Shown: piece after piece, positions 7,628 through 8,168 of the stretch | Layout: the number at the start of each line of letters is the position of its first letter | How positions within the stretch are numbered: position 1 is the first letter of the stretch | Assembly: GCA_009937505.1 (NCBI GenBank) | Contig: JAACFJ010000012.1 | Location: 1-64,000, forward strand | From: Gammaproteobacteria bacterium | GTDB lineage: Bacteria; Pseudomonadota; Gammaproteobacteria; Steroidobacterales; Woeseiaceae | Reading direction: 5' to 3' | Length of the DNA stretch: 64,000 nucleotides | Notes under the pieces: generated by a model | Seen by the model: only the letters and a program-made list of their open reading frames with translations | Databases searched by the model: none | What the model was told of the DNA's origin: nothing | Position numbers and translations under genes: made by a program

Positions 7628-7794
7628 TGCCCGTGCAGGTCCCGTACTATGTTTCGCGCTGCATTCGCGCAGAATAACAGGAGATGTCCCGCTACACACT
7701 TGCGAAAGTACTTTAACTTAATACGCCAACAGCAGAAACGAAAAACAGCTTGAAAAATCGAAGATACGGTTTCAAAAGAAAGAGTTGCAGCGCG

Positions 7795-8168
7795 CGAGAG
7801 AAGTTCTACAGTGAACCCTGAGGCGAAAGCCTCGAGTTAGCAAGTTCGCTTGTTGACGACCGCCCTGCTTGAAGAGGTCCGAGCCTCGTCCAGTGTCGGG
7901 GGCGGTGGACGCAAAAAAGGCGGAACCTGACGCGAAAGCGGTGAGTGAGAGCTCGCCAATGGAACGAAAGGAATGCGAAGGTGAAACTCGGAAATGAAAC
8001 CGGAGCGTTATGCCGGGTAGCCCGATATCAAGAACGTAGTCGGGTCTGAATTCGGGACGCGGGCCGCAAGGCCGGCAGACTGGGTGAAGAGTCGAGTACG
8101 CGACAAAGCAGATCTACCCACGCGTCCTCTTACGCCGAAAGCGGCCCATCGGGCCGCTTTCTTTTTTT
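7795..8168 (+). ncRNA. Candidate large structured non-coding RNA, possibly HEARO/omega-RNA-like
   Basis: No convincing ORF; many local stems (GAGGC-GAAA-GCCUC, GCAAG-UUCG-CUUGU, GGCC-GCAA-GGCC, CCCGA..UCGGG) and a long-range stem GGACGCG 8055-8061 / CGCGUCC 8121-8127, ending in a rho-independent terminator. Confidence 0.65.
8138..8168 (+). terminator. Rho-independent terminator
   Basis: AAAGCGGCCC-AT-CGGGCCGCTTTCTTTTTTT. Confidence 0.9.

Follow-up and report, generated by a model that had tools for sequence, protein, structure and literature searches.

A predicted stand-alone, highly structured RNA gene of a previously undescribed family in Woeseiales

What is encoded by the roughly 370 nt that lie between two ordinary genes of a marine-sediment bacterium of the Woeseiaceae? 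The window analyzed here is the whole 64,000-nt stretch of DNA, and all coordinates refer to it. A sequence-only reading had proposed that positions 7795 to 8168 form a highly structured orphan noncoding RNA without a good ORF, ending in a strong T-rich terminator and possibly belonging to the HEARO/omega RNAs, the guide RNAs of IscB. Positions 7795 to 8168 overlap no ORF of 60 aa or longer. The + strand folds at -159 kcal/mol, compared with -133.8 ± 5.4 kcal/mol for dinucleotide-shuffled sequences (z score of -4.70, with none of 100 shuffles as good), and the - strand reaches a z score of only -1.16, so that the strong structure first seen by eye is borne out. The sole + strand terminator found between 7000 and 8500 closes the region; a terminator is present in almost all homologues, but the sequence of its stem varies. 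The proposed extent was right at this 3′ end but too long at the 5′ end, as the transcript is expected to begin near 7819, downstream of a predicted promoter at 7785 to 7812. The predicted gene thus occupies 7819 to 8168 and would yield an RNA of approximately 345 nt that stands alone between its neighbors. We regard it as almost certain that this region is a genuine structured RNA gene.

7819 to 8168, + strand: predicted RNA, with its start deduced from promoter spacing and its end at the terminator (fold z score of -4.7; homologues present)
8137 to 8168, + strand: strong intrinsic terminator, an 11-bp stem (8137 to 8161) followed by a T-run

A search of the window with all 4,227 Rfam families (Rfam 15, RF02033 included) by cmscan returned nothing at the gathering score for this region, and a permissive search (E ≤ 10) of the stretch and ten homologues gave only terminator-like or chance matches, none of them relevant. 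The open-access literature searched for Woeseia and Woeseiaceae yielded no description of such an RNA. Judged by these comparisons, the RNA is a member of an uncatalogued, previously undescribed family.

The earlier suggestion of an ORF-less HEARO/omega RNA deserves separate consideration. The RNA resembles HEARO in size class and style, is patchily distributed and has no adjoining nuclease ORF in the window, as ORF-less copies of HEARO would. However, no RF02033 match was obtained in the window, in the homologues or in 73 genomes of the genus (0/73, with control genomes also silent), and the IscB N-terminal domain PF14239 was likewise detected in 0 of the 73 genomes, control genomes again being silent, which leaves these absences provisional. 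In HEARO RNAs, the 5′ end holds a spacer that can be reprogrammed (PMC9755519). The RNA described here differs in that its 5′ end is a conserved hairpin (P1) in the aligned homologues rather than a variable guide and its 3′ end is its own terminator, which leaves no room for a guide at either end. It also differs in its copy number, since each carrier genome has exactly one copy. We consider the HEARO identity unsupported and extremely improbable.

We then asked how widely the family occurs. BLAST searches of 60 relatives yielded 13 further copies, all inside the genus; the named carriers are assemblies from metagenomes that bear the label Woeseiaceae or Gammaproteobacteria, which makes Woeseiales the most likely order of the host. 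An exact core pattern was present in 25 stretches of genome contigs: a Phycisphaerae bin and Micromonospora each contributed one, and the other 23 belong to Woeseiaceae or to Gammaproteobacteria without further classification. The Micromonospora match (L052) was dismissed as a chance hit because the rest of the RNA is absent there. The contig binned as Phycisphaerae (L034, JANQNU010000041.1) contains a full copy, for which misbinning is likelier than transfer between phyla. With R1, a covariance model built on the 5′ core (102 positions), matches were obtained in 26 of 73 genomes of the genus and in 34 of 297 genomes of the order, the latter spread over two families and 6 of 68 genera; every carrier in both genome sets has a single copy. 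Among 369 genomes sampled across the class, R1 gave only two matches, both in this genus. Even among well-assembled genomes many lack the RNA, which is carried by only 13 of 31 good genomes of the genus. No match to the RNA was found in viral contigs (searched with the core pattern), phages or plasmids, and an origin from a phage or plasmid is thus not supported. On present evidence, the family appears confined to one order of Gammaproteobacteria, Woeseiales, which includes Woeseiaceae.

The structure was modeled from an alignment of 32 distinct homologues, which span 306 to 319 nt from P1 to P4 and share 53 to 96% pairwise identity. In the model, the 5′ hairpins P1 and P2 are followed by the P3 domain with its internal hairpin P3b, then by the outer helix P4, which encloses P5 to P11, and finally by the terminator.

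7820 to 7833, + strand: P1, a GAAA-capped 5′ hairpin (95% of cells paired, with an AU/GC change)
7838 to 7855, + strand: P2, a UUCG-capped hairpin (98.7% paired, double changes at 6 of 7 pairs)
7859 to 7906, + strand: P3 domain, ACCGCCC (7859 to 7865) with GGGCGGU (7900 to 7906)
7874 to 7877 with 7884 to 7887, + strand: P3b, a hairpin inside the P3 domain (GC/AU/CG exchanges)
7907 to 7912 with 8122 to 8127, + strand: P4, GGACGC with GCGUCC, closing the 3′ domain (100% paired, CG to UA double changes)
7919 to 7922 with 8011 to 8014, + strand: P5 (GGC/GCC, GGU/ACC and GAC/GUC exchanges)
7945 to 7952, + strand: P6, a GNRA-capped hairpin (double changes at both pairs)
7973 to 7976 with 8005 to 8008, and 7979 to 7981 with 8000 to 8002, + strand: P7 and P8 (all 7 pairs double-changed; the P8 loop carries CUCGGA)
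8015 to 8020 with 8114 to 8119, + strand: P9, GGGUAG with CUACCC (95% paired)
8021 to 8025 with 8040 to 8044, + strand: P10, CCCGA with UCGGG (92% paired)
8059 to 8076, + strand: P11, a GCAA-capped hairpin (recurs with covariation; amplified in G281)
8035 to 8038 with 8097 to 8100, + strand: P12 candidate, pairing from a loop (57% paired)
7878 to 7883 with 7987 to 7992, + strand: PK1 kissing loop, UCCGAG (P3b loop) with CUCGGA (P8 loop), with compensatory changes
7866 to 7869 with 8107 to 8110, + strand: PK2, a candidate long-range pairing, UGCU with AGCA (invariant in 23 sequences, no covariation)

Across the 32 homologues, 90.9% of the cells in the proposed helices are paired. Double-sided changes affect 37 of 69 proposed pairs, compared with 19.1 ± 2.3 in shuffled alignments and 8 to 17 when the partner strand was slid; an earlier set of 23 sequences had given 27 such pairs versus 10.8 ± 2.0 after shuffling. 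The slid control somewhat favors the proposed helices because these were chosen partly from the same alignments, and the double changes represent the stronger argument for the predicted fold. The GNRA- and UUCG-capped stems that had been noticed in the window, P1, P2 and P11, recur in the homologues with covariation, and the compensatory changes that the sequence-only reading had named as its own test were found both in helices and in the kissing loop. Two other stems of that reading proved to be decoys specific to the window. The long-range stem between 8055-8061 and 8121-8127 is paired in just 57% of the cells across homologues, where the conserved pairing of GCGUCC is with GGACGC, in P4. 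Similarly, the stem between TGGGT (8081 to 8085) and ACCCA (8116 to 8120) pairs in only 44% of cells, CUACCC having GGGUAG as its conserved partner, in P9. In one homologue (G281; L090, 9771 to 9953), the P11 hairpin arm has been expanded into a tandem array of five 36-nt copies, and the RNA is approximately 150 nt longer.

The loops of P3b and P8 are predicted to kiss. PK1 is invariant in nearly all copies, and two compensatory changes, UCUGAG/CUCAGA in G087 and GCCGAG/CUCGGC in L054, represent independent events that support the interaction. Exceptions are a C·A mismatch at the first pair in G012 and three more copies with A at that position. The pairing of PK1 is understated in the count for the 32 homologues, as ten alignment rows are shifted at the loop. 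The contact could equally well be intramolecular. PK2, whose core CUGC/GCAG is retained in more distant homologues, remains a candidate since it is invariant and shows no covariation. The P12 pseudoknot was rejected as a family-wide feature, being kept in the commoner RNA subtype only.

Such a body might also be the stability scaffold of a base-pairing regulatory sRNA whose conserved single-stranded segments pair with target mRNAs. A promoter of its own and a strong terminator with a U-run would suit an sRNA, and the model leaves some near-invariant segments unpaired, for instance 7893 to 7899 and 8030 to 8033. However, 86 of the 121 near-invariant positions are paired, the unpaired runs are short, and a rigid fold of more than 300 nt with several pseudoknots would be unusual for sRNAs, which makes this reading doubtful.

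Two sets of elements precede the RNA, a promoter and a more distal module.

7785 to 7790, + strand: predicted promoter -35 box, TTGCAG (TTG at the same place in 29 of 33 homologues)
7807 to 7812, + strand: predicted promoter -10 box, TACAGT (in 32 of 33 homologues, TANNNT stands exactly 7 nt upstream of P1)
7664 to 7671, + strand: upstream element A, TTCGCGCA in the window, consensus TTTGCGCA (at -153 to -156 from P1 in 29 of 33 loci)
7709 to 7716, + strand: upstream element B, TACTTTAA in the window, consensus TACTTNAA (at -111 to -113 in 23 of 33 loci)

Comparison of the loci supports a sigma70-like promoter belonging to the RNA itself, with a spacer of 16 nt in the window and in most homologues. 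The match is weak in the window (7 of 12 positions), a generic promoter scan of the window did not find this -10/-35 pair by itself, and promoters scored singly are often no better than shuffles; the evidence for the promoter thus comes from its constant position and not from the score of any single sequence.

The distal module, TTTGCGCA-N38-TACTTNAA, lies at a fixed distance from the promoter, and the sequence between its elements is mostly not conserved. The count for element B was obtained with a strict pattern, the element being degenerate in several other loci. When 30 whole genomes were scanned for the A-N38-B arrangement, it was present at the RNA loci in 11 genomes, and there were three other matches, with different spacing. 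A general A-N38-B regulon was rejected, as three matches away from the RNA represent background relative to seven matches of a reversed-pattern control in the same genomes. We infer that the A/B module is a predicted regulator-binding region, the alternative being a role as the end of an element. The copies of G008, G156 and G081 lack the module. In G156 (L092) and G081 (L093), a common alternative upstream sequence around AATAAGTA..ATCACGATTG replaces elements A and B, which suggests a swapped control region. At the end of a G079 contig (L050/L099), the copy of the RNA passes into a palindrome formed by its own promoter region, which is probably an assembly artifact.

The genes next to the RNA differ between clades and code for a solute-binding protein, a Peptidase_S74 protein, an aldo/keto reductase, a kdsB-like cytidylyltransferase, glycosyltransferases and others. 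A riboswitch or other leader RNA was rejected because no downstream gene is constant across clades. More specifically, a riboswitch of the downstream solute-binding-protein gene was set aside, as neighbors vary and the gene seems to keep its own promoter-like sequence in genomes that lack the RNA. The RNA is unlikely to serve as a guide, as the leader of a messenger or as a coding sequence for protein. No integrase or transposase was recognized near the RNA among the 25 commonest families listed for the nearest genes.

One recurrent neighbor raises the idea of an accessory defense RNA that works with an RNA-cutting protein. Genes for NYN-domain nucleases, some with a LOTUS domain, are immediate neighbors of the RNA at 4 of 34 loci (L093, L097, L098 and L099), representing about two independent settings, and the RNA resembles many defense genes in its patchiness, its transfer and its single copy. 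However, 30 loci have no adjoining NYN gene, and no defense gene was recognized beside the window copy. We consider the NYN adjacency a lead only and a defense partnership of this type very improbable.

The phylogeny of the RNA does not follow that of its hosts. The RNA tree conflicts with the RNase E and RNase E+G trees, and 11 gains or losses are needed to explain its presence on the species-marker tree. In one pair, the RNAs of G068 and G071 are sisters (support 100/98) in hosts from different RNase E+G clades, the G068 host grouping with G023, which has no RNA (100/97 in the RNase E+G tree). These two loci have in common a block of 500 bp with 81.6% identity, which starts at element A, ends at the terminator and stops there. 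Comparisons of this kind support horizontal movement of the RNA between lineages as an RNA-only cassette of approximately 500 bp, the edges of which were defined from this one pair; transfer is the simplest reading of the conflict between RNA and host trees. Both the patchiness and the apparent transfer could be inflated, as nearly all genomes seem to be metagenome assemblies, with contigs possibly misbinned. At another site, in close relatives, G036 has the RNA inside an extra stretch of approximately 600 bp between the kdsB-like gene and a phosphatase-like gene, whereas G030 has no copy of the RNA and its kdsB-like gene lies immediately beside the phosphatase-like gene, presumably that of a low-molecular-weight phosphatase. 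Either an insertion or a deletion can account for this difference.

These observations also bear on the possibility of a selfish non-autonomous element, RNA or DNA, mobilized in trans, of which TTTGCGCA would form the left end and the terminator the right end. The bounded unit of G068 and G071 (one pair), the presence or absence of the RNA at the kdsB operon (one site) and the 11 gains or losses would all agree with such an element. Nevertheless, there is never more than one copy per genome, no conserved right end exists past the terminator, and the three copies without element A (G156, G081 and G008) would lack its left end. We consider a selfish element improbable.

We favor the view that the locus holds a stand-alone RNA gene from a new family, most likely regulated and trans-acting, whose product is an accessory RNA that forms a ribonucleoprotein or an oligomer. 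A regulator would bind the upstream A/B module and turn the RNA gene on, and the transcript of approximately 345 nt would then act in trans, either at the heart of a small ribonucleoprotein or in the form of a homo-oligomer joined through kissing loops, to fulfill an accessory function. We assign this proposal as a whole a probability of about 0.6. Its components that are supported by comparative analysis are the RNA gene, its fold, the promoter geometry, the single copy, the restriction to one order, the lack of a fixed partner and the cassette transfer. A bolder reading, less likely than not, is a protein-free cassette passed on horizontally, whose single gene makes only a pseudoknotted RNA and carries its own distal control module; it might spread singly between lineages because of an accessory RNA-based function (defense, stress or RNA-only assembly) for which the known RNA families offer no example.

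Bacterial RNAs of comparable complexity are scarce, and a number of them still have no assigned function. The family described here occurs in a group common in marine sediments and has many divergent homologues, strong covariation and a seemingly partner-less spread, which make the structure and role of a mobile RNA-only gene directly testable.

The RNA can be compared with several known systems. It resembles class A RNase P RNA (RF00010) in its long-range helices, pseudoknot-rich fold and similar length, but the genuine RF00010 RNA was found at other loci in all five genomes tested (G000, G027, G095, G005 and G156), and the RNA is thus not their RNase P RNA. 6S RNA (RF00013) is also a stand-alone structured gammaproteobacterial RNA, but a separate, normal 6S RNA is present in 53 of 61 genomes of the genus, including most carriers of the new RNA, which argues against replacement of one by the other. 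RF00013 was not detected in G000, the genome of the window, or in G003 and G035, which are close relatives; there, 6S RNA may have diverged or may be lost through incomplete assembly. CsrB/RsmZ-type sponges of CsrA are likewise stand-alone gammaproteobacterial RNAs with a terminator and upstream activator-like sites. In contrast with them, the new RNA has no Rfam match and is not clearly enriched in GGA (a mean of 10.3 versus 8.9 in shuffled sequences for 34 loci, and 7 versus 9.0 in the window), and we rejected a role as a CsrA/RsmA sponge. OLE, ROOL and GOLLD are similarly stand-alone, highly structured and patchy, with kissing loops and a largely unsettled function; by cryo-EM, they form RNA-only homo-oligomers in which kissing loops are used (PMC12286853). 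The new RNA is clearly smaller, known only from Woeseiales and, the Rfam search being negative, without sequence or covariance relation to them. A kissing loop is the only one of their assembly features supported in the new RNA, and by analogy OLE, ROOL and GOLLD would be its nearest counterparts in kind.
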